Assembly (NCBI GenBank): GCA_028532905.1 | Contig: JAQQAM010000057.1 | Span: 1 to 45,214 of the forward strand | Origin: Spirochaetales bacterium | Lineage (GTDB): Bacteria > Spirochaetota > Spirochaetia > DSM-2461 | Direction: 5' to 3' | Length of the DNA stretch: 45,214 bases | In this document: one piece after another, positions 5,010 through 31,642 of the stretch | How positions within the stretch are numbered: the first letter of the stretch is position 1 | Layout: each line of letters opens with the position of its first letter | Translations under genes and position numbers: made by a program | Notes under the pieces: generated by a model | Seen by the model: the letters and a program-made list of their open reading frames with translations, nothing else | Told to the model about the DNA's origin: nothing | The model's database searches: none

Positions 5010-5561
5010 TCAGCTGCCTTTTTTCATACCGAATACCTGGGCGGTGAAGCTGTAAAGGCTGTAGCTGCCGCTTCTCCAGAATTCCGCCGGAAGTCCGGCT
5101 TTCATGGAAAGATGATCCATAAAAGTGTCTCTGTCCCAGCCCTGTTCTGTGGCCACCTGAGGCAGAAACAGTCCCCTGTAGATGCCGCTTTCCAGCAGAG
5201 CACCGTGGGTTCCCATAATCAGATCATCAGCAGAATCAACGGCTTCCATGGGACTGAGCAGGGATATTTCAAGATCCGCCTCTTCCCATTCCTCTTCCGT
5301 CAGGGGCGGAAACCGGGGATCTCTGAAGGCTGCCGAATGGCCTGCCTCTTTAAGGCTGTACCGCAGTTCTTCCCGTCCTTCTATAAAACCGATACATCCC
5401 CTCAGGCGCTCCTTCAGGTGGAGGGTGACAAAGGCTCCGCACCGGGGCAGAGTCTCCAGGACGGAGGGTGTCTCCTGCTCCTTCCTGCCGAAGGCCGATC
5501 CGATGGTACTGTACACCCAGTTCAGTATCTGAAGTTCTTCCTCTCTGCTGAGCTTCTTCAT
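5010..5561 (-). CDS. AMMECR1-domain protein
   Basis: Partner-type protein of the AMMECR1-MEMO-radical SAM set found in bacteria and archaea; its biochemical role is not settled. The domain fills the protein. GAFVTLHLKERLRGCIGFI carries the hallmark LRGCIG, followed by AAFRDPRFPPLTEEEWEEADLEISLLSP. I chose ATG 5561 because GGGAGGG lies 8 nt before it; this gives 183 residues. A GTG at 5582 in the same frame is also possible and would abut the upstream stop. It is the last gene of a minus-strand operon, directly after the MEMO-like gene, which fits the usual pairing. Confidence 0.85.
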   Translation of the reverse strand: MKKLSREEELQILNWVYSTIGSAFGRKEQETPSVLETLPRCGAFVTLHLKERLRGCIGFIEGREELRYSLKEAGHSAAFRDPRFPPLTEEEWEEADLEISLLSPMEAVDSADDLIMGTHGALLESGIYRGLFLPQVATEQGWDRDTFMDHLSMKAGLPAEFWRSGSYSLYSFTAQVFGMKKGS

Positions 5562-5584
5562 TGTTTTGTCCCTCCCCGGCACAC

Positions 5585-6430
5585 TCAGTGTCCTGTCCAG
5601 ACTCCTGCGGCATAGTGAACCGCCATGGTTCCGTTTTTATCTTCCACTTCCGTACGGCTTCTGTGAAGAAGGTTAAAGAGTCCCTTCTCCCGGTCAGAAA
5701 AAAGGTTCAGGTCTGAGACAAGATGAAGCGGCACAACACCGCAGCTGCTGACATCTCCCTTCTTTTCTTTTTCTAGCATAGAATTTTTCAGCGGGAAATT
5801 CAGATCTTCCAACAGAGTTCCTGCTTCTTTTTCCGTCTCTTCCATCCGGCCGTAGCGGCTCAGGTTGGCGGACAGAATAATCAGAGTGTTCCCCTCCTGC
5901 TCTTTCAGAAAAGAACGGATTAGGGCGGCCCCTTTCTTTATATTCGACCGTTTCAGTCCGGCTGTCAGGAGCGGGATGAGGGGAGTGTCCGGAAATAGTG
6001 TCTGAATAAAGGGCAGCTGCAGCTCCAGGGCATGCTCCTCCATATGAGGGGAGTCATCCACTGTAAAAAGCCCTTCCTCTTGTTTCAGAATCCCGCAGCT
6101 TTTCTGATCCACAGGGAGCAGTCCCAGAGGACTGTCAAAGAACTTCTTTGTGGGGAGGTAGATTTTCTGTTCTTCCCTCTCTCTGTGAACCGGAGCTATC
6201 AGCAGAATCCTGCGGGGCTTAAAATCCCGGGCTGCTGAAAAGGCGGCGGCAATACATTCGGCGCACTGATCCCAGCTGCCGTGGGGTGTGAGGATTATCC
6301 GGGCTGCCCCCCGGTGGTTTTTCTGCTGTTCCAGTTCCTTCTCTACCCGGCGGGCCAGTTCCCGGGGCTCTTCCGGATAAAAGAGGCCGCTCACAATGGT
6401 TTCACGGATATCCCGTTTCAGTATTTCCAT
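5585..6430 (-). CDS. MEMO-like protein (AmmeMemoRadiSam system protein B)
   Basis: Member of the MEMO/LigB-dioxygenase-like fold; bacterial members accompany AMMECR1 and a radical SAM protein. Putative metal ligands are kept: H50 in LTPHGSWDQC, H82 in LIAPVHRERE and C230 in SSCGVVP. EEHALELQLPFIQ near 131-143 is the typical EEHSLEVQLPF stretch. Two departures are visible: the usual PHAGY loop reads PHGSW, and the usual SSDLSHY reads SANLSRY, so an Asp and a His are replaced. The ATG at 6430 directly follows the TAG of the NFACT gene, so the two genes abut and are probably translationally coupled. Confidence 0.8.
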   Translation of the reverse strand: MEILKRDIRETIVSGLFYPEEPRELARRVEKELEQQKNHRGAARIILTPHGSWDQCAECIAAAFSAARDFKPRRILLIAPVHREREEQKIYLPTKKFFDSPLGLLPVDQKSCGILKQEEGLFTVDDSPHMEEHALELQLPFIQTLFPDTPLIPLLTAGLKRSNIKKGAALIRSFLKEQEGNTLIILSANLSRYGRMEETEKEAGTLLEDLNFPLKNSMLEKEKKGDVSSCGVVPLHLVSDLNLFSDREKGLFNLLHRSRTEVEDKNGTMAVHYAAGVWTGH

Positions 6431-12393: not shown

Positions 12394-14202
12394 TCAAACC
12401 AGAGGAAGTTTTACTTTGAAGGTCGTATTTTTTCCGGGTGTACTGCTGAATGTGAGAATCCCGTTATGGGCTTCCATTATATGCTGGCAGATCGAAAGGC
12501 CCAGACCGGCATTCTCTTTTTTGATCTTGGTAGAGAAGAAGGGAGAAAAAATCTCCTTCTGTATTTCCAGAGGAATCCCGTAGCCGTCATCACTGATCAG
12601 AATCTGGATGTAGTTGTCTAAGATTTCCCTGTTGATCTCCACCTTTATATGTCCCCCCTGGGCAACGGCTTCAATGCTGTTGTTGATCAGATTGACGAAA
12701 ACCTGACGCAGTCTGTTCTCATTCCCCTTGAGGATAATCTGGCCTTTCGGGTACGTCCGGCTCAGCTGTATGTTCTTGTTCTTGATATTGTGTGACAGAA
12801 GAAGGAGGACTTCATCCAGCAGGTCTATCAGATTGAAGCTCTGATCGGGAACCTGTTTGAGTTTGGAAAAAGAGAGGAGGCTGGATGTTATTTCAGTAAT
12901 GCGGGAGAGCTGAGTCTGGATCTTCTCCAGTTTCTCCCGGGTTTCATCATCCGGATTGCCGTAGAGAAGAATCTGAAGGTAATTGTTGATAATTCCCAGA
13001 GGATTGTTGATCTCATGGGAGACACCCGCCGCCAGTTCGGCTACTGAGGATATTTTTTCAGCCCGTACCAGATATTCCCTGAGAGAACTTTCCATCAGTT
13101 CCTCTTCCAGCATCAGTACAGAACCCTTGTATGTATCGGAACTGTCCTTGAAGGGCATGGTTTTTATCCGCAGGAACTTTTTCTGCTGAAAGGGGATATG
13201 TTCCCAGGATTTTTCCTCGTTATTTTTCAGAACATCGATGATTTTCTCAGCCCATGTCAGATCTTCCTTCAAGAGAATCTCCTGGGCCGGAGTGCCGCTG
13301 GGCGGAGCTGTCTCCCGTTCCAGAATCCGGTTGGCCGCGTTGTTAATGGAGGTCAGTTCCAGATCTCTGTTGAAAATCAGAACACCCGCCGGCAGATTGG
13401 CCATCAGGTTCCGGGGAAGTCCATGGTCTCCCAGAATCAGAGACTGATCGGTCTGTTCATTCTGATTCAGGGCAAAATTATAGGTCAGTCTCAGGAGTTT
13501 GATCCGGTCCAGGTCTTTTACGTCTTCTGTGCCGCCGGAGATTCCATTGTGGAGAAAGGTGACACGGTCGGCCAGTTCAATGATATTATCCACATCCGAA
13601 TCGATAAAGATTATGGACTTTCCCTCATTTCTGCTTTTTTTCAGCACATTGGTCAGGAGTCCCATTTCTTTGGCTGTCAGGCGCCCGCTTATATCATCAA
13701 GAATCAGTATCTCAAAATCAAGATAATAGAGCCGGGCCAGCTCAATCATCTGCTGCTGGGCGGCGCTGAGCAGTTCCATGGGTGTTTCCAGGTTCACATC
13801 CAGTCCTATCTCTTCAAGAATGGCTCTGCAGCGCCCGATTTGCTCCAGTTTGTATTTGTGGGAGATCCTGCCGGGGGGCAGGGTGCCGGCGATGATGTTT
13901 TCAAAAGCCGACACATTGGGAATAATCAGGGGTTCCTGATAAATCACACCGATCCCTTTCTGAAGGGCCAGTTCAGTATTCATTTCCTCTATGAGTCTGC
14001 CTTTCAGGAGGTACGTGCCGGAATCCGGTTTCAGCACTCCCGTAATGATTTTTATGAGCGGAGTCTTTCCTGCCCGGTGCTCTCCCACCAGGGCATGAAT
14101 TTCACCCGGTTTCAGATCAAAACTGATGTTCTGCAGCACATGACTCTTTTTATTATTGAGATATATATTTTTCAGCTGCAGAAGGGGCGGGCTGTAGGGC
14201 AT
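12394..14202 (-). CDS. Histidine kinase with a degenerate sugar-ABC ATPase input domain (ABC-PAS-HisKA-HATPase)
   Basis: A 602-residue soluble sensor kinase. Residues 7-235 are clearly a sugar-importer ABC ATPase of the RbsA/XylG type but with altered motifs: Walker A GEHRAGKT (40-47, Gly to Arg at 43, Lys46 kept), Q-loop Gln89 kept (YQEP), signature LSAAQQQ (135-141, Gly to Ala), Walker B ILILDDIS (Glu to Asp at 160), and the switch His replaced by Ser192 (FIDSDVDN, where importers have ISHKLEE). Then a PAS domain (about 255-350, ANLPAGVLIFNRDLELTSIN), HisKA with phospho-acceptor His386 (AGVSHEINNPLG) and an intact HATPase (FVNLINNSIEA, DDGYGIP, AGLGLSICQHIM). No membrane span is seen. It overlaps the upstream response-regulator gene by 1 nt (TGATG), so the pair is coupled. 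The sensing mode is inferred: the ABC part may dock on a sugar-permease. Confidence 0.88.
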   Translation of the reverse strand: MPYSPPLLQLKNIYLNNKKSHVLQNISFDLKPGEIHALVGEHRAGKTPLIKIITGVLKPDSGTYLLKGRLIEEMNTELALQKGIGVIYQEPLIIPNVSAFENIIAGTLPPGRISHKYKLEQIGRCRAILEEIGLDVNLETPMELLSAAQQQMIELARLYYLDFEILILDDISGRLTAKEMGLLTNVLKKSRNEGKSIIFIDSDVDNIIELADRVTFLHNGISGGTEDVKDLDRIKLLRLTYNFALNQNEQTDQSLILGDHGLPRNLMANLPAGVLIFNRDLELTSINNAANRILERETAPPSGTPAQEILLKEDLTWAEKIIDVLKNNEEKSWEHIPFQQKKFLRIKTMPFKDSSDTYKGSVLMLEEELMESSLREYLVRAEKISSVAELAAGVSHEINNPLGIINNYLQILLYGNPDDETREKLEKIQTQLSRITEITSSLLSFSKLKQVPDQSFNLIDLLDEVLLLLSHNIKNKNIQLSRTYPKGQIILKGNENRLRQVFVNLINNSIEAVAQGGHIKVEINREILDNYIQILISDDGYGIPLEIQKEIFSPFFSTKIKKENAGLGLSICQHIMEAHNGILTFSSTPGKNTTFKVKLPLV

Positions 14203-15527
14203 CAGGATAACCCGTATTTCTTCATTCTGTTATACAGGGTCTTACGATGAATACCCAGTAGATCGGCGGCCTTGCTTTTGGAGCCCCCTGCTCTGACAAG
14301 AGCATCACTTATAGCCTGTCTGGAGAGATCCTGATACAAAGCCTCAAGAGGTTTCTCCTCTCCTTTCAGCACAGGAATGTTCATTTCTCTGTACTGTTTG
14401 GGCAGGTTCTCTTTTGCCACAGTCCCGCTTTGACAGAAAATGACAGAACGCTCTATCACATTTTTCAGTTCCCGGATATTGCCGGGCCAGTCATGGGCCA
14501 GAAACATCTCCTTCACTTCCGGGCTCAGCTCCTTAACATCCTTTCCGTAGGACGAGCTGAAGAGCTTCAGAAAACTTTCGCACAGAAGAGGAATGTCCTT
14601 TTTTCTGTCCCGCAGCGGGGGCAGGTGGATGTTGATAACAGAAATCCTGTAAAAGAGGTCTTCTCTGAAGTCTCCGTTCTTAATCATTTCAGGAATATTC
14701 TTATTGGTAGCGGCAACTATTCTGATATCCGCTTTGATCAGCTCATTGCTTCCCAGACGTTCGAATTCCTTCTCCTGCAGGACTCTCAGGAGTTTCGCCT
14801 GGGTGTTGAGGCTCATATCACCGATTTCGTCCAGAAACAGAGTTCCCCCATGGGCGACTTCGAACTTACCCTCTCTGTTGCGTCTGGCATCTGTAAACGC
14901 TCCTTCTGCATGGCCGAAGAGCTCACTTTCCAGCAGAGAGTCGGGAATGGCGGCACAGTTGAGTTTGACATAGGGGCCGCTGGAGCGCTGGCTGAAACTG
15001 TGCACCCCATTGGCTATTCTCTCTTTGCCTGTACCGCTCTCACCGGTTATGATCACCGGGGCATCTGTGGGCGCTGCTGTCCGGATAATCTGAAAGATAT
15101 CCTTCATGGCCTTTGTCTCTGAAACAAGCTCATCTGAGTCGTGTGCTTCCAGGGCGCTGCTGCTGTGTTTGTTCAGATACTCTTCGGCTTCGTTGATCAG
15201 TTCCGGAATATTCAGGGGCTTTTCATAGAAATTGATGGCACCGTATTTCATACACTGCACAATGTTTTCCGTTGAAGCGTAGCCGGACATCATTATGATT
15301 CCGGTTTCCGGATAGATCTCCCGAATCATTTTCAGAAGAGAAACCCCGCCCAGTCCGGGCATGCGCACATCCATCAGGATCAGATCCGCAGTCTCTTTTT
15401 CCAGAAGGGGGAGGACATCAAGGGGATCGGTGGCTGTTAGAACGCTGTATTTCCGGGCAGAAAATATTTCGGAAAGAGAGAGGCACATCTCCTCTTCATC
15501 ATCAATAATCAGTATTTTTAAAGGCAT
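14202..15527 (-). CDS. NtrC-family sigma-54 response regulator
   Basis: Enhancer-binding activator expected to be phosphorylated by the adjacent ABC-PAS kinase and to open sigma-54 promoters. The 441 residues contain a receiver (1-120; acidic pair DDEE near 9-12, phospho-acceptor Asp in LILMDVRMPG near 53, and the KPLNIP lysine), a sigma-54 AAA+ domain (about 135-375; Walker A GESGTGKE, Walker B LFLDEIGD, R-finger region DLFYRISV) and a Fis-type HTH at the C-terminus (GGSKSKAADLLGIHRKTLYNRMKKYGL). The sigma-54 contact loop reads GAFTDA, not the common GAFTGA. ATG 15527 has no obvious Shine-Dalgarno. It is divergent from xylF across a spacer with palindromes and a -24/-12 promoter. Confidence 0.92.
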   Translation of the reverse strand: MPLKILIIDDEEEMCLSLSEIFSARKYSVLTATDPLDVLPLLEKETADLILMDVRMPGLGGVSLLKMIREIYPETGIIMMSGYASTENIVQCMKYGAINFYEKPLNIPELINEAEEYLNKHSSSALEAHDSDELVSETKAMKDIFQIIRTAAPTDAPVIITGESGTGKERIANGVHSFSQRSSGPYVKLNCAAIPDSLLESELFGHAEGAFTDARRNREGKFEVAHGGTLFLDEIGDMSLNTQAKLLRVLQEKEFERLGSNELIKADIRIVAATNKNIPEMIKNGDFREDLFYRISVINIHLPPLRDRKKDIPLLCESFLKLFSSSYGKDVKELSPEVKEMFLAHDWPGNIRELKNVIERSVIFCQSGTVAKENLPKQYREMNIPVLKGEEKPLEALYQDLSRQAISDALVRAGGSKSKAADLLGIHRKTLYNRMKKYGLS

Positions 15528-15635: not shown

Positions 15636-15651
15636 GTGCAACAGCTTGCAC
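15636..15651. promoter_or_regulatory. Palindrome 1: candidate activator site
   Basis: GTGCAACAGCTTGCAC is an inverted repeat with 6-bp arms (GTGCAA and TTGCAC) around a 4-bp centre. It sits about 137 bp before the -24 element of xylF, a normal distance for an enhancer-binding activator. It is probably the binding site of the adjacent NtrC-type regulator. Confidence 0.6.
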
Positions 15652-15668
15652 ATCCGTCAGACAGAGCT

Positions 15669-15684
15669 GTGCAAGTATGTGCAC
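15669..15684. promoter_or_regulatory. Palindrome 2: candidate activator site
   Basis: GTGCAAGTATGTGCAC has 5-bp arms (GTGCA and TGCAC) and shares its left half with palindrome 1. The two centres are 33 bp apart, about three helical turns, which fits tandem dimer binding on one DNA face. The rest of the 298-bp spacer between the regulator and xylF is AT-rich and holds only these sites and the sigma-54 promoter. Confidence 0.6.
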
Positions 15685-15772
15685 ATTTTGGCAAAATTTT
15701 AAAATTCATGATAAGATGGTACAAATTATTAACTGTTTACTAATAAAGGAAATAGGACATAATCGCCTTTTT

Positions 15773-15787
15773 TGGCACAGTTGTTGC
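15773..15787 (+). promoter_or_regulatory. Sigma-54 (-24/-12) promoter of xylFGH
   Basis: TGGCAC at 15773-15778 and TTGC at 15784-15787 are separated by 5 bases, a nearly perfect match to TGGCAC-N5-TTGC. The invariant GG (15774-15775) and GC (15786-15787) are 12 apart. Transcription should begin near 15799, leaving a leader of about 27 nt with the Shine-Dalgarno AAAGGAG before the xylF ATG at 15826. Confidence 0.88.
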
Positions 15788-15825
15788 GATTAGAATGGGC
15801 AGAAACTTAACTAAAAGGAGTTAAA

Positions 15826-16899
15826 ATGAAAAAAGTAGCTATTATTCTTCTTTCTCTCGTTATGCTCGCCTCTATGGGTATGAGTGTGTTTGCGTCAGGT
15901 CAGCAGGATGGTGACAAACCTCTTAAGGTCGGTCTCTCTTTTTCTGATTTTGATACAGAAAGATGGTCTACTGAAGCAGATGCAATGGAAAAACTTTTCA
16001 CCGAAGCCGGTTGTGAAGTTGTTATTCAGGTAGCCAACCATGATGCCAAACTGCAGAATGACCAGATTGACAACATGGTAACAGGCGGTGTTGATGTCCT
16101 GCTGATCGTTGCTGAAGACGGGGCAGCCGCTGCAACTGCTGTTGATGATGCTGCTGCGGAAGGTATTAAGGTAATCGCTTATGACAGACTGATCAAATCT
16201 GCCAACCTTTCAGCATACATCTCTTTTGACAACGTTGCTGTAGGTGAAGCTCAGGCGAAAGCCATCGTGGAAAGAGTGCCCGAAGGCCGCTTTGTAATGC
16301 TCGGCGGATCTCCCACAGACAACAATGCCGTTCTCTTCAGAAAAGGACAGATGAATATCGTTCAGCCTCTGGTGGATGCCGGAAAAATCGAAATCGTTGC
16401 CGACCAGTGGGTGGAAAACTGGGACAGTGCTACTGCGACAACCAAAATGGAAAACATCCTGACAGCCATCGACAATGGTGTTGATGCTGTTGTTGCTTCC
16501 AATGACGGTACTGCTCTTGGTGCTCTTCAGGCCATGAAAGCCCAGGGACTGGCCGGTGTTGTTCCCATCTCCGGACAGGATGCCACAGCCGCCGGTTGTA
16601 AATCCATCGTTGAAGGCGAACTCTCCATGACCGTATTCAAGGATCTCAGAAAACTGATGCCCCTGGCCGTAGAAACCACTCTGGCCCTCGGCCGCGGTGA
16701 GTCCATTTCCGGTATGACATCCTACTCTCTGAAAGAACTGACAGGTGACAACCTCTCCGGTGATGTTCCCTGTAAGTTCCTGGAAGTTATTTCTGTAGAT
16801 GCAGACAACGTATACGAAGAAGTTGTAAAAAGCGGATTTCAGGCTTACGACGAAGTTTACAAAGACATTCCCGAAGATCAGAGACCTCCTAAAGTCTGA
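15826..16899 (+). CDS. xylF: Xylose-type ABC importer substrate-binding protein (XylF-like)
   Basis: Periplasmic pentose- or hexose-binding protein feeding an ABC importer. The signal peptide covers about 1-23 (MKKVAIILLSLVMLASMGMS then VFA), and the mature part starts SGQQDGD. XylF-specific stretches are evident: ERW at 45-47, VIAYDRLIK, YISFDNVAVGEAQAKA, GGSPTDNNAVLFRKGQM, QWVENW, VVASNDGT and SGQDATAAG. The 357 residues fit the family. D-xylose or a related sugar is the likely ligand, but the exact sugar cannot be fixed from sequence. It is expressed from a sigma-54 promoter and is separated from xylG by a terminator-like hairpin, consistent with a higher level of binding protein than of ATPase and permease. 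Confidence 0.9.
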   Translation: MKKVAIILLSLVMLASMGMSVFASGQQDGDKPLKVGLSFSDFDTERWSTEADAMEKLFTEAGCEVVIQVANHDAKLQNDQIDNMVTGGVDVLLIVAEDGAAAATAVDDAAAEGIKVIAYDRLIKSANLSAYISFDNVAVGEAQAKAIVERVPEGRFVMLGGSPTDNNAVLFRKGQMNIVQPLVDAGKIEIVADQWVENWDSATATTKMENILTAIDNGVDAVVASNDGTALGALQAMKAQGLAGVVPISGQDATAAGCKSIVEGELSMTVFKDLRKLMPLAVETTLALGRGESISGMTSYSLKELTGDNLSGDVPCKFLEVISVDADNVYEEVVKSGFQAYDEVYKDIPEDQRPPKV

Positions 16900-16925
16900 T
16901 TTTCATCTGTTGATGTGAAATAATA

Positions 16926-16953
16926 ACCGGGAGGTTAAACTCCCGGTTTTTTT
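16926..16953 (+). terminator. Intrinsic terminator or attenuator between xylF and xylG
   Basis: ACCGGGAG (16926-16933), a GTTAAA loop and CTCCCGGT (16940-16947), followed by a T-run to 16953, form a perfect 8-bp-stem terminator 26 nt after the xylF stop. Partial read-through would supply xylG and xylH. Confidence 0.8.
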
Positions 16954-17121: not shown

Positions 17122-18666
17122 ATGGAATCGGAATACATTCTGGAAATGGCGGGTGTAACAAAGAAATTCCCTGGTGTAACGGCATTAAAAGATGTTTCCT
17201 TTAAAGTAAAGAGAGGGGAGATTCACGGGATCTGCGGAGAAAACGGTGCCGGCAAGTCCACACTTATGAAGATTCTCTCGGGCGTATACCCCCACGATAC
17301 TTATGAAGGGCAGGTTTTCTATAATGGAGAAGAGGTTAATTTTACTGCCGGTGCAATCAGACAGGCTATTGAGAAAGGGATTGCTATTGTTTATCAGGAG
17401 CTGGCCCTCGTTCCTCAGTTGACTGTTGGAGAAAATATCTTTCTGGGGCACGAACCCCGCAAAAAAAACGGAAGCATAGACTGGAATCAACTGTATTCCA
17501 ATACAAAGGATATTCTGGAAAAGTATAAACTGGATATTCCCTATGCCGAAAAGGTGGAGGACCTTCCCGTCGGGAAGCAGCAGATGGTGGAAATTGCCAA
17601 GGCCCTGAGTGAGGATGCCAAGGTCCTGATTCTGGATGAGCCCACCTCCGCCCTGACCATTAATGAAGCAGAAGTATTGATGGATATTATCCGGCTCCTG
17701 AAGGAGCAGGGTGTTACCATGCTGTATATATCCCATAAACTGGAGGAGTTTTTTGAAATCTCCGATACGGTAACCGTCTTCCGGGACGGCCAGTTTATTG
17801 AATCTCTGGATAAGGAAAGACTCTCTCTGGAACGGATGATCGCCCTGATGGTCGGTCGGGATATGACAGAGCGTTTTCCTGAGAGAAAACACCAGATTGG
17901 CGAGACGGTCTTTTCTGTCAGCGATCTTCATGTCATTGATCCGGATAAACACGGAAAGAAGGTCATCAGCGGTATCTCCTTTGATCTCCATAAGGGGGAG
18001 GTTTTCGGAATTGCCGGCCTTATGGGTGCCGGCCGTACTGAACTGGTGACCGCTCTGTTCGGTGCCTACGGACAGGTTGTTCAGGGCGAGATTCAGGTGA
18101 ATGAAAAGGCTGTTGTCATTAAAGATATTAAAACCGCAATGGATCTGGGAATCAGTCTGGTACCGGAAGACAGAAAAAATATGGGATTGATTCTCGACCA
18201 GTCCATCCTGAAGAATATCAGTCTGCCCAATATGGACAGATTTGCCGGATTCGGGCGAATTAACAAACTGGGAGAGCTGGAAGAGAGCCAGAAATATTCT
18301 AAAAGCCTCTCCATTAAAACTCCCAGTATGCATGTGGCGGTTGAGAGCCTCAGCGGAGGGAATCAGCAGAAGGTTGTCATTTCCAAATGGCTGATGTCCA
18401 GCCCCCAGATTCTGATACTGGATGATCCTACCAGAGGAATCGACGTCGGTGCCAAATATGAAATCTACAAACTTATCAACGACCTGGCAGAGCAGGGTGT
18501 AGCCATCATTATGATATCGTCAGAAATGGAGGAAGTCATTGGAATGAGTGACCGGATTATGGTCATGTTCGAAGGACAGAGCTCCGGTATCATAGATGTT
18601 GCCGATGCGACTCAGGAAAAAATCATGTCTATGGCCACAGGAAATGTGGCGGATCAGGAGGACTAA
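17122..18666 (+). CDS. xylG: Sugar ABC importer ATPase (XylG-like, two ABC domains)
   Basis: Energises sugar import with XylF and XylH at the cytoplasmic membrane. The first ABC domain (about 6-240) is fully canonical: Walker A GENGAGKS at 39-46, signature LPVGKQQ, Walker B ILILDEPT and switch His in ISHKLEE. The second ABC domain (about 260-500) has the usual degenerate Walker A of this family (GLMGAGRTE), the signature LSGGNQQKV and Walker B ILILDDPTRGID. The 514 residues fit the family. It gives an intact reference for the degenerate ABC domain in the nearby kinase. ATG 17122 follows AAAGGAG. The xylH ATG begins 2 nt after its stop. Confidence 0.93.
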   Translation: MESEYILEMAGVTKKFPGVTALKDVSFKVKRGEIHGICGENGAGKSTLMKILSGVYPHDTYEGQVFYNGEEVNFTAGAIRQAIEKGIAIVYQELALVPQLTVGENIFLGHEPRKKNGSIDWNQLYSNTKDILEKYKLDIPYAEKVEDLPVGKQQMVEIAKALSEDAKVLILDEPTSALTINEAEVLMDIIRLLKEQGVTMLYISHKLEEFFEISDTVTVFRDGQFIESLDKERLSLERMIALMVGRDMTERFPERKHQIGETVFSVSDLHVIDPDKHGKKVISGISFDLHKGEVFGIAGLMGAGRTELVTALFGAYGQVVQGEIQVNEKAVVIKDIKTAMDLGISLVPEDRKNMGLILDQSILKNISLPNMDRFAGFGRINKLGELEESQKYSKSLSIKTPSMHVAVESLSGGNQQKVVISKWLMSSPQILILDDPTRGIDVGAKYEIYKLINDLAEQGVAIIMISSEMEEVIGMSDRIMVMFEGQSSGIIDVADATQEKIMSMATGNVADQED

Positions 18667-18668
18667 TC

Positions 18669-19862
18669 ATGACACTGGATAAAGCACAGACAAAAGCTTT
18701 TTTGAAACGCTACACCATGGTAATCGCCTTGTTGTTTATTTGGGTGCTCTTCGGCATTCTGACAGATTGGGTTTTCTTCAAGGCAAGAAACCTTTCAAAC
18801 CTCTTCCGTCAGATGACCATTACCGGATTTCTGGCCAGCGGTATGCTGCTGGTTATTGTGACCGGTGGAATTGATCTCTCTGTCGGTTCGGTTACAGGAT
18901 TCGTCAGTGCGGTGGCCGCCTTTTTTCAGGCCCGGGTTTTTCCTGACCTCCTGCTGAATATGATGCCCAATGCCTCTATCGCCGCCAGAGGAATCACCTC
19001 CACGATCGTTACGGTTCTGATTGCCCTTGTTGTCGGTCTGATGATCGGTTCCCTCCAGGGGCTGGTGATCTCCTATCTCTCGGTTCCGGCCTTTATTGTC
19101 ACCCTGGGATGTATGCTTATATTCCGCGGCGGTGTTCTGGGTGTTACCGGGGGGAAGACCATCGTTCCCATTGAGGACTCTTTCCGCCTGATTGCCCAGG
19201 GATATGTACCCAAGCCTGTGGGGCTGATTCTGGCTCTTATTGTGGTGGTTCTGATCTTTCTGGGCAGTCTGGACAGCCGCAGACGGAAGCGGGCCTATGG
19301 ATTTGAACTGAAACCCCTGGCTCAGGACCTGCTGATGGCCGGACTGTGGTCGGCTCTGGTTCTGGTGTATGTTCTGATTATGAACAGCTACAGAGGGATT
19401 CAGAATCCGGTTCTTCTTCTGGCCGTGGTGGCCATGATTGTGCATTACATCACTCAGAATACCCGTTTCGGCCGGTATGTGTATGCCCTGGGGGGGAATA
19501 AGGAAGCCACAAGACTCTCGGGTGTTAACATTAAAAAGAACCTGTTCAAGGTTCATGCCCTGATGGGGACTCTGGGAGGAGTGGCCGGTATTGTCCTTAC
19601 AGGTTATGTGGCTGCCGGTACAACCGGGGGCGGAACCAACTACGAGCTGGATGCCATTGCCTCCTGTGTTATCGGAGGAGTCAGCCTGTCCGGAGGAAGC
19701 GGTACCATCATGGGAACCATGATCGGCGCCCTTGTGATGGCCAGTCTGGTGAATGGAATGTCTGTGATGAATATGCCCATATTCTGGCAGTATATTATTA
19801 AAGGTCTGGTTCTGATTGTGGCGGTTTATTTTGATATCGCCTCCAAGAAGAAATCATCCTGA
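18669..19862 (+). CDS. xylH: Sugar ABC importer permease (XylH-like)
   Basis: Membrane-spanning partner of XylG and XylF. The 397 residues contain about 10 hydrophobic helices, starting at VIALLFIWVLFGILTDWVFF. BPD_transp_2 features are clear: GMLLVIVTGGIDLSVGSV near the N-terminus, VPAFIVTLG in the middle, and YALGGNKEATRLSGVNI with a following glycine-rich helix near 275-310. The long charged cytoplasmic loop DSRRRKRAYGF between helices is typical of the xylose-type branch. It is directly coupled to xylG by a 2-nt gap and is the last gene before a terminator. Confidence 0.93.
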   Translation: MTLDKAQTKAFLKRYTMVIALLFIWVLFGILTDWVFFKARNLSNLFRQMTITGFLASGMLLVIVTGGIDLSVGSVTGFVSAVAAFFQARVFPDLLLNMMPNASIAARGITSTIVTVLIALVVGLMIGSLQGLVISYLSVPAFIVTLGCMLIFRGGVLGVTGGKTIVPIEDSFRLIAQGYVPKPVGLILALIVVVLIFLGSLDSRRRKRAYGFELKPLAQDLLMAGLWSALVLVYVLIMNSYRGIQNPVLLLAVVAMIVHYITQNTRFGRYVYALGGNKEATRLSGVNIKKNLFKVHALMGTLGGVAGIVLTGYVAAGTTGGGTNYELDAIASCVIGGVSLSGGSGTIMGTMIGALVMASLVNGMSVMNMPIFWQYIIKGLVLIVAVYFDIASKKKSS

Positions 19863-20018: not shown

Positions 20019-22193
20019 ATGAAAAGGTTGCTTTGCTTTTTCATCATGGGGACAGCTCTGGCATGTCTTTTTGGTGAATCCCCTGATTCCTACAAGGTCA
20101 ACTACAACAGATACTACCGCTCACCGGTCAGTCTGGGATTCGGCTACAGCGCCTTATCTCCGTTAAACGGATATGACACAGGTGCTCCCTATAAAATATC
20201 AGACCTAAGTCTGGGGATTCAGTATTCTCCCCGTCCGCTTCCCACCCTGCAGCCGGAACTCACTCTGGGATACAGGATCAGTGACAGTCAGAATTCTCTG
20301 GATGCTGATCTCTGGGACAGCAACGGGTATTACGCGACCGGAGGCTTCCGTTTTATTCATAGGTTTTCAAAAAGTTTTGAAGCCGGGATCGGACTGAGCG
20401 GCGGGTACGAGAGAACCCTATTCAGCGGACTCTCGACAGACGGGATGGTCTCCACCGGTTTTGCCCTGGGGCAGACTGCTCTCTATCTGGGACTCAATCC
20501 CAGCTACAATATGAATCTCACACTGGTCCCTTCTCTGCGCTACCAGCACTGCCTGGACAGTTATCATACCGATATGAACGGTTTTCTATTCGGGATTGGC
20601 GGAGTCGTGAGCTTCCGTTTCGGGAAGGATCCGGATTCTCCTGATGCTGTCATCAAGAGTCTGAATTTCACCAATGCGGAAATAGAACCACTTTTCGCCT
20701 CCATGCAGAGCTATTATACAAAAAATCCCTTCGGCTCTGTGACCGTCACGAATACAGATAAAAATGACTTTCATAATGTTGTGTTCACCTTCTTTCAGTC
20801 CGGATATATGGATGCTCCGACTATTATTCAGGAACTGGATGTAATCGAATCAGGGGAAACAGTGACTGTTCCTCTGAAAGCGTCTTTCAATAATGAGGTC
20901 TTTATGACCGAAGGGGTTACCCCGTTAAGCGGAGAAGTGAGAGTTTCCTATGCTTACAACCGCCGGCCCGTGGATCAGGCCTATCCTGTGTCTTACGACC
21001 TCTATGATAAGTCTTCCATGCTCTGGGATGACGACAGAAAGGTAGCTGCATTCATCACTCCCGCGGACAGCGCCCTGCAGAATTACAGCAGTTTTATCCG
21101 GCATAGCTGTAAAGAGGATGTGAATAGAGGCCATAATGCACAGCTCCAGAGCGCCATGCAGATCTATCATGCTCTTGCAGAGATCGGAGTAATATATCAG
21201 GCCGATCCTCTACAGCCCTTTGCCTCTGTATCAGATACGGAAGCTCTCACTGTGGATACGGTTAATCTGCCCCGGAATACACTGAAGAAACTTACTGGTG
21301 ACTGTGATGATCTGACCGTGCTTTATCTAAGCCTACTGGAAACTCTGGGTATTGAAACGGCTTTTCTCACTGTTCCCGGCCATATATACACCGCTTTTAA
21401 TACAAAAGAGGCGGCCCCCACGGCGGTCCGCATCCACCCGGACAGAGACATGACCATTAATATCGATGGTGAGCTCTGGGTTCCTGTGGAAATCACCCTG
21501 ATAGGGAAAACGGACTTTATGGATGCCTGGCAGAAGGGTGCGGAACAGTGGAACTCTCTGGAAGACAGGGTGGATCAGCGAAGTATGTACCTCACGGCCG
21601 AAGCCCGCAAAGAATTCAGACCGGTGGGACTCCGGGAAACAGACCTCGGACTTCAGTATGGTGATGCCCCACAGATTGCCTCTGCCTTCAGCAGAGACCT
21701 GGATGATCTGACCGAAATAATACTGGCAGATTATTACAGAAAAGCAGAAGAGCGGGGGAGCAAACAGGACTATAACCGTCTGGGAATTGTCCTGGCTGAA
21801 TACGGTCGGAATTCCGAGGCAATTAGTGCATTTAACAAGGCTGTGAGAAAAGACAGCTCCTATATGAGCCCCCGGGTGAATATGGCTAATCTGGAATATC
21901 TGGCAGGCCGTTATGATAAAGCTGTGGATGCCTATCTGAGTGTACTGGAACTGCTTGGAGAGAAAGGGAAGGATGCCAGCCGCAGTGCGGCTCTTATAAA
22001 TCTGAACCTGTCCAGAAGCTATTATGCAATGAAAAATACCGAGGCGGCTCAGAAGTATTTTTCTGCTGCCGAAGCCATAGATCCTGAAAGAGCCGCCGAA
22101 GCCTCCTATCTGGCAGCGGTCAGTTCAGGGAACGGGATCAGCAGAGCTTCAGAAGCGGCAGAGACAACAGTCTTTTTTATGGATGAGGAGTAG
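20019..22193 (+). CDS. Exported barrel-like / transglutaminase-like / TPR protein
   Basis: Unknown function in the cell envelope. The 724 residues start with a signal peptide (about 1-20, MKRLLCFFIMGTALACLFGE). Residues 30-210 alternate polar and aromatic residues in strands (VSLGFGYSALSP, LSLGIQYSP, ELTLGYRISD, FEAGIGLSGGY, FGIGGVVSFRFG), suggesting a small outer-membrane barrel. Residues 415-470 look like a transglutaminase-type thiol core (TGDCDDLTVLYLSLLETLGIE with Cys, then VPGHIYTAF with His). The C-terminus (about 585-700) has TPR repeats (NRLGIVLAEYGRNSEAISAFNKA, then YMSPRVNMANLEYLAGRYDKA). Start ATG 20019 has TGGAG 8 nt before it. The next gene starts 4 nt after its stop. Confidence 0.7.
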   Translation: MKRLLCFFIMGTALACLFGESPDSYKVNYNRYYRSPVSLGFGYSALSPLNGYDTGAPYKISDLSLGIQYSPRPLPTLQPELTLGYRISDSQNSLDADLWDSNGYYATGGFRFIHRFSKSFEAGIGLSGGYERTLFSGLSTDGMVSTGFALGQTALYLGLNPSYNMNLTLVPSLRYQHCLDSYHTDMNGFLFGIGGVVSFRFGKDPDSPDAVIKSLNFTNAEIEPLFASMQSYYTKNPFGSVTVTNTDKNDFHNVVFTFFQSGYMDAPTIIQELDVIESGETVTVPLKASFNNEVFMTEGVTPLSGEVRVSYAYNRRPVDQAYPVSYDLYDKSSMLWDDDRKVAAFITPADSALQNYSSFIRHSCKEDVNRGHNAQLQSAMQIYHALAEIGVIYQADPLQPFASVSDTEALTVDTVNLPRNTLKKLTGDCDDLTVLYLSLLETLGIETAFLTVPGHIYTAFNTKEAAPTAVRIHPDRDMTINIDGELWVPVEITLIGKTDFMDAWQKGAEQWNSLEDRVDQRSMYLTAEARKEFRPVGLRETDLGLQYGDAPQIASAFSRDLDDLTEIILADYYRKAEERGSKQDYNRLGIVLAEYGRNSEAISAFNKAVRKDSSYMSPRVNMANLEYLAGRYDKAVDAYLSVLELLGEKGKDASRSAALINLNLSRSYYAMKNTEAAQKYFSAAEAIDPERAAEASYLAAVSSGNGISRASEAAETTVFFMDEE

Positions 22194-22197
22194 ATAA

Positions 22198-25122
22198 ATG
22201 AAACAGAGACCCTGCTTAATTATTGTATTCATCATTCTGGCATCATTGCTCTCCTGCCGGAATGATCTGATTCCTTTGGAGGAAATGATCCTGGACAGAG
22301 CCAATGATCGTACAGCACCTGTTGTACTGGTAGAGAGCCCTTCTGCAGATTCCGTTTATGGTCAGAATGTTGCTGTTACCGGCCTTGTGAGTGACGACGG
22401 TTCTGTACTCCCCGTTCTGACCTATCAGGTTCAGGATGATCTGGGAAAAGTTATAACAGAAGGCACTGCTGAATTAAGCTCTGTTGAGAGTACTACGGGA
22501 GTGTCCGCATCCTTTGATATCCGTTTTTCAACCGAGAGCATGTGCTCTGATATTCTGATCATCCTGACGGCCACCGACTGGAACGGAAATGTGGATGATC
22601 ATTCCTCCTTCCGGCTGCAGTACCCCGGAAACAGCATTCCCTCCCTGAAAGCCGTATCCGGAAATAACGCAATCAGTCTCAGCTGGGAGCCTTTGTCTGA
22701 GGCCCGGGAGTATATTGTGTATTACACCCTGGATGAAGAAAGTTTTACCGAGGCTTCCGCATCACAGGTCCGTGTGGTTCCGGAAGCGGGACAGGAGCGA
22801 ATCTCTCTGGTGTTAAATAAGGATGAACATGGAGTTCGTAATAACCGGCTGTCCCAGGTTCTGGTCAGAGCTGTGACTTCCGAAGGCAATCTGGATTCTT
22901 CTGTTATGAATATAGTTCCACTGGGTGCCGAATCGCTGACTCCCCGTTTGTCGGCCGGAGCTGATGCGGTTTTTCTGGACTGGAATCCCGTACACTGTGC
23001 AGAAGGTTATGACGCAGAGTATACAGTGTGGCGGTCAAAGAGTGGTGAAGAGGGCAGTTTCTCCAGAATCTCTCCTGTAGGCTGGACATATTCCCATTTC
23101 AGAGATGAAAGTGTCAGTGAAGGAAACATATTTTACTACAAAGTCTCTTGTGAATCCTTCTCTTCAGTGATTAGTACTGCCGCTGTCTGCAAGTCTCTCA
23201 AGACTATTCCCGGAGCTTTTATTGCGGATTATACAGAAATCCTGGGAGATGAGAGTAACCGTTCTGTCAGTACGTATACATTTACTCCGGATGGTAACCG
23301 TCTTTTTATTTTTGATAAGTATCCTTCAAACCGAACGATTATGGAACTGGATATTAACAGCTGCTCTCAAGTAGGAACAACCTACAGTGTAGGCAATTTA
23401 GTTTATGATATGGCTGCAAATAATGATACTCTGTTTATATTGAAGGCCGGTTCCTCACTTAACGAAAAAGTGATCATTTCCTTAGATATCAGTACTCCGG
23501 GAACTATTACAGAGCAGGACAGAATCACTGTTGATTATACTAAAAGTATTTGTCTGAAGGATCAGACTCTGTACCTCACTAAATCAAATAGCAGTAATCA
23601 TTTTGCAATGGATGTGAGTAATCCCTCAGACTTGAAGACGGAATCCGCTTTGAGTTACGGAGGCTCTATTTCTGTCACCTCAGGAAGTACCAGTGATTTG
23701 TTTTTTGTGGGAGATACACTCTACTCCCGCTGTCGGAACGGCTCCGGCACCAGCCAGATTGCCCTGTATGATTCTCTGTCAGACAGCTGGAGCGCTGTCA
23801 ATCTTCTGGATGATGCCCCCGGTTTTGATCAGAGTGATTTACTCTATACCTATATGACGGCCAATGGAGATTCCGGAAAACTGGCTGTCCTTTGTGATAC
23901 CCACTATTTAAGTAACAGCGATGTTCTTTTATGGATTTATGATATCGGAAGTGACGGTTCTTTAACTCTTATGGAATTCAAAGTGCTGGATGACCGGAAT
24001 ACCAGTTATCAAAATATGCCGGTTATCATTGACAATACTCTGTTTGTAAAACGATCCAATAACACCGTTCAGGCAATAAATATCAACGGGCGTATCTATG
24101 AAAAGAAAAGTCATTCTATTCCCCACTATCCCCGTCTTCTTAGCCCTGATGGAAACTCATTATTTGTGACAACCTATGATAATGGTATTGGAATGGTTTC
24201 TTTAAACACTGGTGCTCCACTGAGTCTGAGGGCAACCTGGGCTCCCCCAGCGCCGGCCTGTGGCGCTTTGGCCTTGGACAGAGGCAGGCTGTATTCTTTT
24301 GGAAATTATAAAACAATAAGACAGTACAGTATCGGGAATAATGATACTCTGACACTCCTGGATAGTGATACAGCCTCCGGATGGGGTATTGCTGTAAACG
24401 GCGATGTTCTTTATCAGCGGACAGGTAACAGGAGAATTGATCTGTACAGTATAAGCAGTAGTGGAGCTCTGGGAGGAAAAATAGGAGAAATCGTGACTCA
24501 GAGAGAGGTTTATTCCATCAGTTTTGCCGGAGATTATCTGATTGCCGGAGAAAAATATAAAGTAGAAATTTTTGATGTTTCTGATTCAGATAAGATGATC
24601 AGCATAAGTGATTTTGATACAAATTATAATGTAACCGGTACTGAAGTCTATGAGGACTCTTTACTTGTTCTGGATTCCAACTACGGACTCTGCTGTTATA
24701 ATTTCTCCAACCCGGAAGATCCTGTTCTGGAAGGTGTTTTTTATGACAGAGCGTCTTCTTCCCGTACTGTTCATGCAGTGGATGTTCAGGAGGGGTTGGT
24801 ATACCTTGGAACAAATACCGGTCTTTTTGTTCTTAATCTGGAAGAGGCTTCAAACTGGAGAACCGCTGATTCTAGTTTTGATAATTACGGATCGGCTAGC
24901 TGTTGGATAGAAGGAGATGCCAAGGGGGTAAAGGTTGCCGGTGATTTTCTTTACTTTTCCAATTCTGGATACCTGGGAGCATACAGTCTCAGCAATCCTA
25001 AAAATCCTGAACTCTTTTATGAAGATACCGAAGCACGATATATAAACAGTATAACCCTGTGGGGGAATAGTCTGTTTGGATTAACTACCGGTACTCTGTA
25101 CAGCTTTTCTCAGGATGGTTAA
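22198..25122 (+). CDS. Large propeller-type lipoprotein with FN3-like domains
   Basis: A 974-residue envelope lipoprotein (signal MKQRPCLIIVFIILASLLSC, lipobox LLSC with Cys20). Two fibronectin-III-like domains are suggested at about 150-230 (SLSWEPLSEAREYIVYYT) and 245-325 (DWNPVHCAEGYDAEYTVWR). The remaining 600 residues are a long run of blade-like repeats resembling LVIVD/propeller proteins, for example IEVFDVSDSDKMISIS, then VYEDSLLVLDSNYGLCCYNFSNPEDPVLEGVF and GLVYLGTNTGLFVLNLEE. It is almost certainly cotranscribed with the barrel/transglutaminase gene, 4 nt upstream. Exact function unknown; a binding or structural surface role is a guess. Confidence 0.7.
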   Translation: MKQRPCLIIVFIILASLLSCRNDLIPLEEMILDRANDRTAPVVLVESPSADSVYGQNVAVTGLVSDDGSVLPVLTYQVQDDLGKVITEGTAELSSVESTTGVSASFDIRFSTESMCSDILIILTATDWNGNVDDHSSFRLQYPGNSIPSLKAVSGNNAISLSWEPLSEAREYIVYYTLDEESFTEASASQVRVVPEAGQERISLVLNKDEHGVRNNRLSQVLVRAVTSEGNLDSSVMNIVPLGAESLTPRLSAGADAVFLDWNPVHCAEGYDAEYTVWRSKSGEEGSFSRISPVGWTYSHFRDESVSEGNIFYYKVSCESFSSVISTAAVCKSLKTIPGAFIADYTEILGDESNRSVSTYTFTPDGNRLFIFDKYPSNRTIMELDINSCSQVGTTYSVGNLVYDMAANNDTLFILKAGSSLNEKVIISLDISTPGTITEQDRITVDYTKSICLKDQTLYLTKSNSSNHFAMDVSNPSDLKTESALSYGGSISVTSGSTSDLFFVGDTLYSRCRNGSGTSQIALYDSLSDSWSAVNLLDDAPGFDQSDLLYTYMTANGDSGKLAVLCDTHYLSNSDVLLWIYDIGSDGSLTLMEFKVLDDRNTSYQNMPVIIDNTLFVKRSNNTVQAININGRIYEKKSHSIPHYPRLLSPDGNSLFVTTYDNGIGMVSLNTGAPLSLRATWAPPAPACGALALDRGRLYSFGNYKTIRQYSIGNNDTLTLLDSDTASGWGIAVNGDVLYQRTGNRRIDLYSISSSGALGGKIGEIVTQREVYSISFAGDYLIAGEKYKVEIFDVSDSDKMISISDFDTNYNVTGTEVYEDSLLVLDSNYGLCCYNFSNPEDPVLEGVFYDRASSSRTVHAVDVQEGLVYLGTNTGLFVLNLEEASNWRTADSSFDNYGSASCWIEGDAKGVKVAGDFLYFSNSGYLGAYSLSNPKNPELFYEDTEARYINSITLWGNSLFGLTTGTLYSFSQDG

Positions 25123-28309: not shown

Positions 28310-28325
28310 TGGCACAACTCCTGCA
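28310..28325 (+). promoter_or_regulatory. Sigma-54 (-24/-12) promoter of the nif operon
   Basis: TGGCAC (28310-28315), 5 bases, then CTGCA (28321-28325); the GG and GC pairs are 12 apart. It is a close match to TGGCAC-N5-TTGCA. Transcription should start near 28336, about 30 nt before the nifH ATG, with AGGAGG in between. NifA encoded at 38891 is the expected activator. Confidence 0.88.
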
Positions 28326-28329
28326 ATAG

Positions 28330-29187
<858 letters not shown>

Positions 29188-29528: not shown

Positions 29529-29902
29529 AGGAAGTGATGGCTGTTGTCCGCATCAATCAGATGAACCGGACGAAAGAGGCACTCACCAAGGCGGGAATAA
29601 CCTCCTTTACAGTTACCGGCCGCGTTATGGGCCGGGGAAAGGGGCTGGTGGACCACCAGGTTCTTAAGGCTGCGGATGAGGGAGATGAATATGCCAGAGC
29701 CCTTCTGGGCAGCGGCCCCCGTCTCATCTCTAAGAGGATGATTCTGGTCATTGTACCTGACGATATGGTGGATGTGACAGTGGATACCCTGATTAAGACC
29801 AACCAGACTGGTAAAGCCGGAGACGGGAAGATTTTTGTTCTGCCTGCTACAGAGACCTACAGAGTCAGAACTGGTGAGAACGGGGACAGTATTCTGCAGT
29901 GA
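29525..29902 (+). CDS. nifI2: PII-family nitrogenase regulator NifI2
   Basis: Partner of NifI1. The 125 residues have the longer T-loop typical of NifI2 (GRGKGLVDHQVLKAADEGDEYARALL) and the usual end GDGKIFVLPATETYRVRTGE. It overlaps nifI1 by 4 nt and is followed 25 nt later by nifD. The pair suggests ammonia-dependent switch-off acts directly on the enzyme in this organism. Confidence 0.92.
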   Translation: MKEVMAVVRINQMNRTKEALTKAGITSFTVTGRVMGRGKGLVDHQVLKAADEGDEYARALLGSGPRLISKRMILVIVPDDMVDVTVDTLIKTNQTGKAGDGKIFVLPATETYRVRTGENGDSILQ

Positions 29903-29927
29903 TACAGGCTGCATAGGGAGAAGTAAA

Positions 29928-31580
29928 ATGAGTTCATTAGCAGATAATGAAAAACTGAAAGACGACATACTGGATATCTACCCGGCCAAAGTCGCCAGGA
30001 AGAGAAAGAAGTCTATTGTTCTGAATGATCCCGGTGAGATTCCCGAGATTCAGGCCAATGTCCGGACTATTCCGGGAATCATCACCCAGAGGGGCTGCAG
30101 TTATGCAGGCTGTAAAGGGGTAGTTCTCGGACCTACCAGAGATATTATAAACCTGACTCATGGTCCCATTGGCTGCGGATTCTATTCCTGGCTGACCAGA
30201 CGGAACCAGACCAGACCCGGAACGGAAGCAGGCAGTGATGAGAATTTTATGACCTACTGTTTTTCAACGGATATGCAGGACCCCAACATTGTATTCGGGG
30301 GAGAGAAAAAACTGAAAAAGGCTGTGAAAGAAGCGTATGACACCTTTCACCCCAAGGCCATCGGTATTTTCAGCACCTGTCCGGTCGGTCTGATCGGTGA
30401 CGATGTGCACGCGGTTGCCCGTGAAATGACAGAAGAGCTGGGAGACTGTAATGTTTTCGGCTTCAGCTGTGAAGGGTATAAGGGGGTCAGCCAGTCGGCA
30501 GGCCACCATATTGCCAACAACCAGCTGTTCAAACATGTCATCGGCAAGGGTGAAGAGAAGACCGAAGGTGAGTTTAAAATCAATCTTCTGGGAGAATACA
30601 ACATCGGCGGAGATGCTTTCGTTCTGGAGGATATCTTCGAGAAATGCGGTATTACCCTGGGAGCCACCTTCAGCGGTAACTCAACATACGACCAGTTCGC
30701 CTCCAGCTACTCGGCTGATCTGAACTGTATCATGTGCCACCGTTCCATCAACTACGTTGCTGAGATGATGGAGGAGAAATACGGTATTCCCTGGATCAAG
30801 GTTAACTTTATCGGAGCCGAGAGCTCTGCCAAATCCTTGAGAAAAATAGCCGATTATTTCGGCAGTCAGAAGCTGAAGGACAGGGTGGAAGAGGTTATAG
30901 CCGAAGAGATGTCTGCTGTTTCAGCTGCCCGGGATGAAGTTCTGCCCAGAACCGAAGGGAAGTCGGCCATGCTCTTTGTGGGAGGCTCCAGAGCTCACCA
31001 TTATCAGGACCTGTTTACAGAGCTGGGTATGAAAACCCTGGCTGCCGGATATGAGTTCGGTCACAGGGACGATTATGAAGGACGCCGGGTCATTCCCAAT
31101 ATCAAAATTGATGCGGACAGCCGGAACATCGAGGAACTCTCTGTTTCTGCAGACCCTGATAAATACAACCAGAGGATCACAGACGAAGAGAGAGCCCGCC
31201 TGACCGAAGAACGGGGCCTAGAGTTCAGTGACTACGAAGGGCTTATGCCCCAGATGGAAGAGGGAACCCTTGTTATAGATGACCTGAGTCACTATGAGAT
31301 GGAAGAGCTGATCAAGGCTCATAAACCCGATGTGTTCTGTGCGGGAATCAAAGAGAAATATGCCGTTCAGAAGATGGGCGTTCCCTTAAAACAGCTACAC
31401 AGCTATGACTACGGCGGACCCTATGCCGGATTCGCCGGTGCAGTGAACTTCTATAAGGACATTGCCCTGATGGTCAGCAGCAGAGTCTGGGGACTGGTCG
31501 GTGCTCCCTGGGAGAAGGGTGAATCCCTGTCTCCTGTCTATGTTGAGAGCGGAGCTCCCGCGGTCACCATGACAGAGTAA
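29928..31580 (+). CDS. nifD: Nitrogenase MoFe protein alpha chain NifD
   Basis: Carries FeMo-cofactor and part of the P-cluster. P-cluster ligands appear at C57 (RGCSYAGCKG), C83 (IGCGFYSW) and C151 (STCPVGLIGDD). FeMo-co ligands are C270 (CIMCHRSINY) and H491 (QLHSYDYGGPYAGF). An insertion of about 50 residues near 385-450 (RRVIPNIKIDADSRNIEEL and following) is typical of clostridial and other group II/III enzymes and explains the length of 550. ATG 29928 follows AGGGAGAAG. No vnfG- or anfG-type delta gene follows, so the Mo type is most likely. Confidence 0.95.
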   Translation: MSSLADNEKLKDDILDIYPAKVARKRKKSIVLNDPGEIPEIQANVRTIPGIITQRGCSYAGCKGVVLGPTRDIINLTHGPIGCGFYSWLTRRNQTRPGTEAGSDENFMTYCFSTDMQDPNIVFGGEKKLKKAVKEAYDTFHPKAIGIFSTCPVGLIGDDVHAVAREMTEELGDCNVFGFSCEGYKGVSQSAGHHIANNQLFKHVIGKGEEKTEGEFKINLLGEYNIGGDAFVLEDIFEKCGITLGATFSGNSTYDQFASSYSADLNCIMCHRSINYVAEMMEEKYGIPWIKVNFIGAESSAKSLRKIADYFGSQKLKDRVEEVIAEEMSAVSAARDEVLPRTEGKSAMLFVGGSRAHHYQDLFTELGMKTLAAGYEFGHRDDYEGRRVIPNIKIDADSRNIEELSVSADPDKYNQRITDEERARLTEERGLEFSDYEGLMPQMEEGTLVIDDLSHYEMEELIKAHKPDVFCAGIKEKYAVQKMGVPLKQLHSYDYGGPYAGFAGAVNFYKDIALMVSSRVWGLVGAPWEKGESLSPVYVESGAPAVTMTE

Positions 31581-31605: not shown

Positions 31606-31630
31606 ACCGGTGCCCCCTTCGGGTGCCGGT
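31606..31630 (+). repeat. Hairpin between nifD and nifK
   Basis: ACCGGTGCCC and GGGTGCCGGT can form a 10-bp stem (two wobble pairs) with a short loop in the 62-nt spacer. It lacks a T-run and ends 3 nt before the AAGGAGA of nifK, so it is more likely an mRNA processing or stability element than a terminator. Confidence 0.45.
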
Positions 31631-31642
31631 AAGGAGAATATT

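Follow-up and report, generated by a model that had tools for sequence, protein, structure and literature searches.

A 45,214-nucleotide contig of a Spirochaetales bacterium (GenBank assembly GCA_028532905.1, contig JAQQAM010000057.1; the whole stretch is called the window here) carries two tandem palindromes and a sigma-54-type promoter between a leftward regulator gene and a rightward sugar-importer operon. Which protein binds these palindromes, and which of the two divergent operons do they serve? Site 1 (GTGCAACAGCTTGCAC, 15636-15651) is a 16-bp palindrome with a perfect GTGCA-N6-TGCAC, and site 2 (GTGCAAGTATGTGCAC, 15669-15684) lies 33 bp downstream of it. The palindrome centres fall at 15643.5 and 15676.5. 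The two sites start 137 bp and 104 bp upstream of the -24 TGG, respectively, and the end of site 2 is 89 bp from the -24 element. The -24/-12 promoter (TGGCACAGTTGTTGC, 15773-15787, + strand) has its GG (15774-15775) and GC (15786-15787) in the standard sigma-54 register. The earlier note had located both palindromes and this element to the base and had given a centre spacing of 33 bp and a promoter distance of ~90-137 bp, all of which is borne out by the coordinates. Enhancer geometry, taken as at least two palindromic sites ~80-200 bp upstream and in helical phase, is found here with a separation of 33 bp.

Between site 2 and the promoter lies an AT-rich spacer of 88 bp (15685-15772, + strand), with 24% GC versus 49% for the window, which probably bends and thereby brings the activator to the polymerase. 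The spacer contains no IHF-consensus site. Judging from the promoter position, transcription is expected to start near 15798, which, with the gene start at 15826, predicts a short leader. No Rfam match to a known RNA element was found within the window. Strong sigma-54-like sites number only two in the window. The second, TGGCACAACTCCTGC (28310-28324, + strand), lies 20 bp before a nifH-like gene (28345-29187), and two genes for nitrogenase component 1 come next (29835-31580 and 31610-33034). Sigma-54 promoters are established for genes of the nifH class.

The promoter faces the importer operon, whose first gene encodes an XylF-like sugar-binding protein (15826-16899, + strand) and is preceded by the ribosome site AAAAGGAG. 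Profile matches identified the remaining importer genes, on the same strand, as an XylG-like double ABC ATPase (17122-18666) and an XylH/GguB-like permease (18669-19862). The binding protein scored 334.8 against the XylF equivalog cut-off of 389.6, the ATPase 673.3 against 699, and the permease, nearest to GguB, 331.9 against 450; these scores do not establish the sugar specificity. A strong terminator-like hairpin with a T-run (16925-16948, + strand) separates the binding-protein and ATPase genes. It may cause partial attenuation and allow an excess of binding protein, which is common in such importer operons. Downstream of the importer, two long genes (20019-25122) encode a 724-aa protein with TPR repeats and a 974-aa protein without a Pfam match.

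On the other side, the predicted binder is an NtrC-family response regulator (14202-15527, - strand) transcribed leftward, divergently from the importer genes. Profiles matched a receiver, a Sigma54_activat domain (E 3e-71), and a Fis-type HTH, whose recognition helix is HRKTLYNRMKKYG, of the H-R-K-T-L-Y type (H-type). The GAFTGA loop of the AAA+ domain is present as the variant GAFTDA, which is named among natural variants that should remain active in Desulfovibrio, DVU2106 being an example with assigned targets (PMC4641369). RpoN is encoded in the genome (PF04552, E 4e-57), which its FlaA proteins mark as that of a spirochaete. The regulator scored 403.8 bits against the NtrC equivalog TIGR01818, below its cut-off of 558.6. 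No sigma-54-like site facing the regulator gene was found, and the regulator seems to serve a single operon. Its stop codon is overlapped by the start codon of the partner histidine kinase gene (12394-14202, - strand).

We then examined how rare the elements are, using pattern searches over the 4.98-Mb genome with reversed patterns as a control. Exact GTGCA-N6-TGCAC occurred at these two sites only, and the control gave 0. Allowing at most one mismatch, the window held three copies against 0.68 expected, and the two exact ones were both here. The combined pattern TGCAC-N72..102-TGGCAY-N6-TGC had a single occurrence in the genome, at this locus (control, 0). The promoter pattern TGGCAC-N5-TTGC by itself occurred 11 times in the genome, and its weight therefore comes from its position and its conservation in relatives. 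The earlier note had proposed a genome scan for the motif and had named wide scatter through coding DNA as what would count against its reading; genome-wide, exact copies are confined to the two sites here and the motif is not scattered.

Relatives were gathered with the kinase as query from near genomes and from a class-wide sample. Kinase relatives were present in 25 of 61 near genomes, and more were found in the class-wide sample, with several per genome. In the 58 stretches read around them (587 kb), the kinase mostly stands beside an NtrC-type regulator and a sugar ABC importer, often in divergent arrangement with a -24/-12 element before the importer. This element is conserved before orthologous genes in L034, L035, L036, L048, L049, L109, L113, L117, and L124, where it precedes the binding-protein gene as it does here. 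Where a regulator of the H-R-K-T-L-Y type adjoins a divergent promoter, GTGCA-like sites were found in all 12 loci, the window included, and a recognisable pair 30-33 bp apart in 10 of them; in L109 and L123, one site is perfect and the second only weak. All 11 such loci other than the window had GTGCA-like pairs at p ≤0.014 relative to shuffles. For nine non-redundant H-type loci, with the window excluded, the summed pair score at 30-33 bp was 146, compared with 100.5 for shuffles (sd 2.9, maximum 108, n = 300), and no other spacing window from 16 up did as well as 30-33 bp. The 33-bp spacing proposed earlier thus holds at this locus and gives way, as a strict value, to 30-33 bp among relatives.

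Across the 58 loci, tandem pairs scoring at least 17 of 20 at 30-33 bp occurred only before sigma-54 promoters of H-type systems, and the same scan of five shuffled sets returned 0. None of the 12 loci with S-, T-, N-, or D-type regulators reached the H-type pair level (best p 0.024, in L042). The whole-locus scan also supplied an out-of-sample case, L111, whose H-type regulator lacks a divergent sigma-54 promoter. Here the tandem sites GTGCACGAATGTGCAC and GTGGCACCACGTGCAC, 33 bp apart and 98 bp before TGGTACGGCGCTTGCA, lie together with that promoter after the permease gene and before the ATPase-like reading frame that comes next. Because these sites precede the ATPase-like gene, the pattern goes with the importer, not just with gene order. 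The H-type locus L065 showed neither tandem pair nor promoter in the stretch read, and L110 and L119, on short contigs, were excluded from judgement. Some motifs had already been seen when the H-type grouping came to attention. Conservation of sites and spacing is independent of this grouping; the claim that the His sets specificity depends on it. On the tree, the H-type regulators group together, with 3-4 changes, and independent contrasts are thus too few to put the helix-motif link to a sign test.

Forty half-sites gave the consensus GTG(C/G)(A/C)A, in which the first G was present in 39 of 40, the second G in all 40, and the T between them in 36. Second sites are often weaker, of the form GTGGC-N6-TGCAC with a weak left half. 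The motif that had been predicted for the regulator is supported, with the refinements that the second site is often weak and that the motif is not exclusive to this regulator family. In genome G073, L129 carries, near 5561-5659, an exact GTGCA-N6-TGCAC and a sigma-54-like site before a solute-binding-protein gene; it belongs to an unrelated membrane-kinase two-component system beside an NtrC-type regulator, and convergent use of the same operator is possible. The NtrC consensus is TGCACCAnnnTGGTGCA (PMC8743547), and identity of the present motif with it was ruled out, since orientation and gap differ. Judged by a TGCACCAnnnTGGTGCA site together with the equivalog score, the locus falls outside the nitrogen NtrC regulon. 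Other palindromes were seen beside other regulator types. L047, L122, and L126, all S-type and of one clade, have conserved GTAACAG-like palindromes upstream of the regulator and before a sigma-54 promoter, and L042-L044 have TTCCC/GGGAA-like palindromes. These sequences hint that each paralogue may have a private operator. A motif-agnostic search for tandem palindromes over all loci was too weak to decide by itself.

Taken together, the conservation of sites, spacing, and promoter, the way the motif tracks the regulator type, its absence elsewhere in the genome, and the presence of RpoN argue for the enhancer of an NtrC-type activator that the earlier note had proposed. On this sequence evidence, the palindromes are very probably the UAS of the divergent NtrC-family response regulator, which would drive sigma-54 transcription of the XylFGH-like importer.

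The sites might instead be operators of another factor, a sugar-responsive repressor or a CRP-like protein, with the regulator binding elsewhere. The motif is a plain 16-bp palindrome, an exact copy precedes the unrelated two-component system of G073, and weak sigma-70-like sites do occur in the region (5 found against 2.2 expected). However, in loci from many families, presence of the motif goes with the type of the neighbouring regulator, and most sites begin 90-150 bp before the -24 (209 bp in L123), an enhancer-like position and not one over the promoter. The genome also lacks the further copies that a global regulator would need, and even the G073 copy precedes a sigma-54-like site beside an NtrC-type regulator, so we regard this explanation as improbable. 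We give still less credence to the idea that the sites mainly autoregulate the leftward regulator-kinase operon, with activation of the importer being secondary. Site 1 does lie 109 bp upstream of the regulator start codon, and weak leftward sigma-70-like matches are present at 15603-15576 and 15562-15534. Nevertheless, the sigma-54 promoter faces the importer and none such faces the regulator, and in L111 the tandem pair and its promoter stand before a transporter ATPase-like gene, away from the regulator gene. That the palindromes arose by chance and have no function is scarcely credible: short palindromes do occur, and nothing else speaks for chance, whereas the two sites are unique in the genome and are conserved, with their spacing, in divergent relatives.

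If the palindromes are the UAS of the adjacent regulator, each of them would be bound by a dimer of the phosphorylated regulator. Placed on the same face of the DNA at a distance of about three helical turns, the two dimers would help assemble the AAA+ ring, and the AT-rich 88-bp spacer would loop. ATP hydrolysis would then remodel the sigma-54 polymerase at 15773-15787, and the XylFGH-like importer would be transcribed. These steps are inferred from what is established for activators of the NtrC type; the anatomy, uniqueness, and conservation come from the sequence.

The kinase that would phosphorylate such a regulator combines a CUT2-type ABC ATPase, PAS, HisKA, and HATPase_c without a membrane segment; no hydrophobic segment was found in it, as in a soluble protein. 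Residues 1-245 form a complete ABC ATPase fold, with profiles nearest to the CUT2 importer ATPases YtfR, AraG, and AlsA, and are followed by PAS and then by an AtoS/ZraS-like kinase core. A predicted model and a structure search agree for both halves (mean pLDDT 77, pTM 0.45, with domain placement uncertain). The Walker A Lys and Walker B Asp are retained across the ABC-kinase family. The glycines of the LSGGQ signature are missing family-wide, the window protein reading LSAAQ, and the H-loop His is variably missing; the window kinase has IDSD in its place. Taking LSGGQ and the H-loop His as the marks of a functional ABC ATPase, the N-terminal domain does not qualify as one. Since the nucleotide-binding residues are kept while the signature glycines and the H-loop His are lost, the domain may dock or read without pumping. 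From the domain make-up, we tentatively propose that it senses the state of the importer, perhaps by docking on the permease or by reading the nucleotide state without pumping; the simplest supposition is that the domain mimics an ATPase and either docks on the importer or monitors it.

The ABC-kinase family of spirochaetes (L034-L073, L109-L126), of which up to four copies were found per genome, mostly adjoins an NtrC-type regulator and a sugar importer. An ABC-kinase fusion from Lysinibacillus in the named genome collection was rejected, because the opened loci L091 and L092 hold separate neighbouring genes. A search of the open-access literature for fusions between an ABC ATPase domain and a histidine kinase returned nothing relevant, which is not proof of absence, and no named family or paper for an ABC-domain kinase circuit was found in profile families or open-access literature. 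Spirochaetes may possess a class of one-operon circuits whose output end is the enhancer. In such a circuit, a soluble kinase would read how occupied or active the transporter is by means of a non-pumping copy of the transporter's ATPase domain, and each paralogous regulator would act on its own importer through a private tandem palindrome, with GTGCA for H-type regulators and GTAACAG-like or TTCCC-like sequences for the other types. The locus provides a concrete predicted operator and promoter for a two-component family that has several paralogues per genome and is found next to sugar importers in many spirochaetes. Were the ABC-domain kinase to sense the state of the transporter, it would couple the import machinery directly to gene control at the molecular level, and paralogue-specific operators, if real, would show how several circuits stay insulated within one cell.

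Compared with known systems, the enhancer and promoter are of a classical kind; the ABC-domain kinase partner is unusual. As with the NtrC UAS, tandem palindromes lie ~100-150 bp upstream of a -24/-12 promoter and the activator is of the receiver-AAA+-Fis HTH type. Unlike in the NtrC UAS TGCACCAnnnTGGTGCA, the half-sites are reversed and the gap is shorter, giving GTGCA-N6-TGCAC, and the target is a sugar importer. Among the closest named NCBIfam families are AtoS for the kinase core and AtoC and ZraR for the regulator, and ZraS is a close solved structure to the kinase core. However, the scores are far below the family cut-offs, and in contrast to AtoS-AtoC and ZraS-ZraR, the kinase has no membrane sensor and instead carries an N-terminal CUT2-type ATPase. 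Sigma-54 controls sugar phosphotransferase systems of the MptR/LevR type (PMC12316311, PMC8262876). The present locus resembles those systems in placing sugar uptake under sigma-54. The MptR/LevR type comprises a phosphotransferase system and PTS-controlled activators, as opposed to the ABC importer and response regulator found here. The importer itself, with XylF-, XylG-, and GguB/XylH-like genes, is like the xylFGH importers controlled by XylR in Escherichia coli and by XylFII-LytS in Clostridium, the latter a two-component system tied to a sugar-binding protein. Control at this locus differs from both in using sigma-54 and an NtrC-type regulator, and in place of the extracytoplasmic sensor of XylFII-LytS it has a soluble kinase with an ABC ATPase domain.
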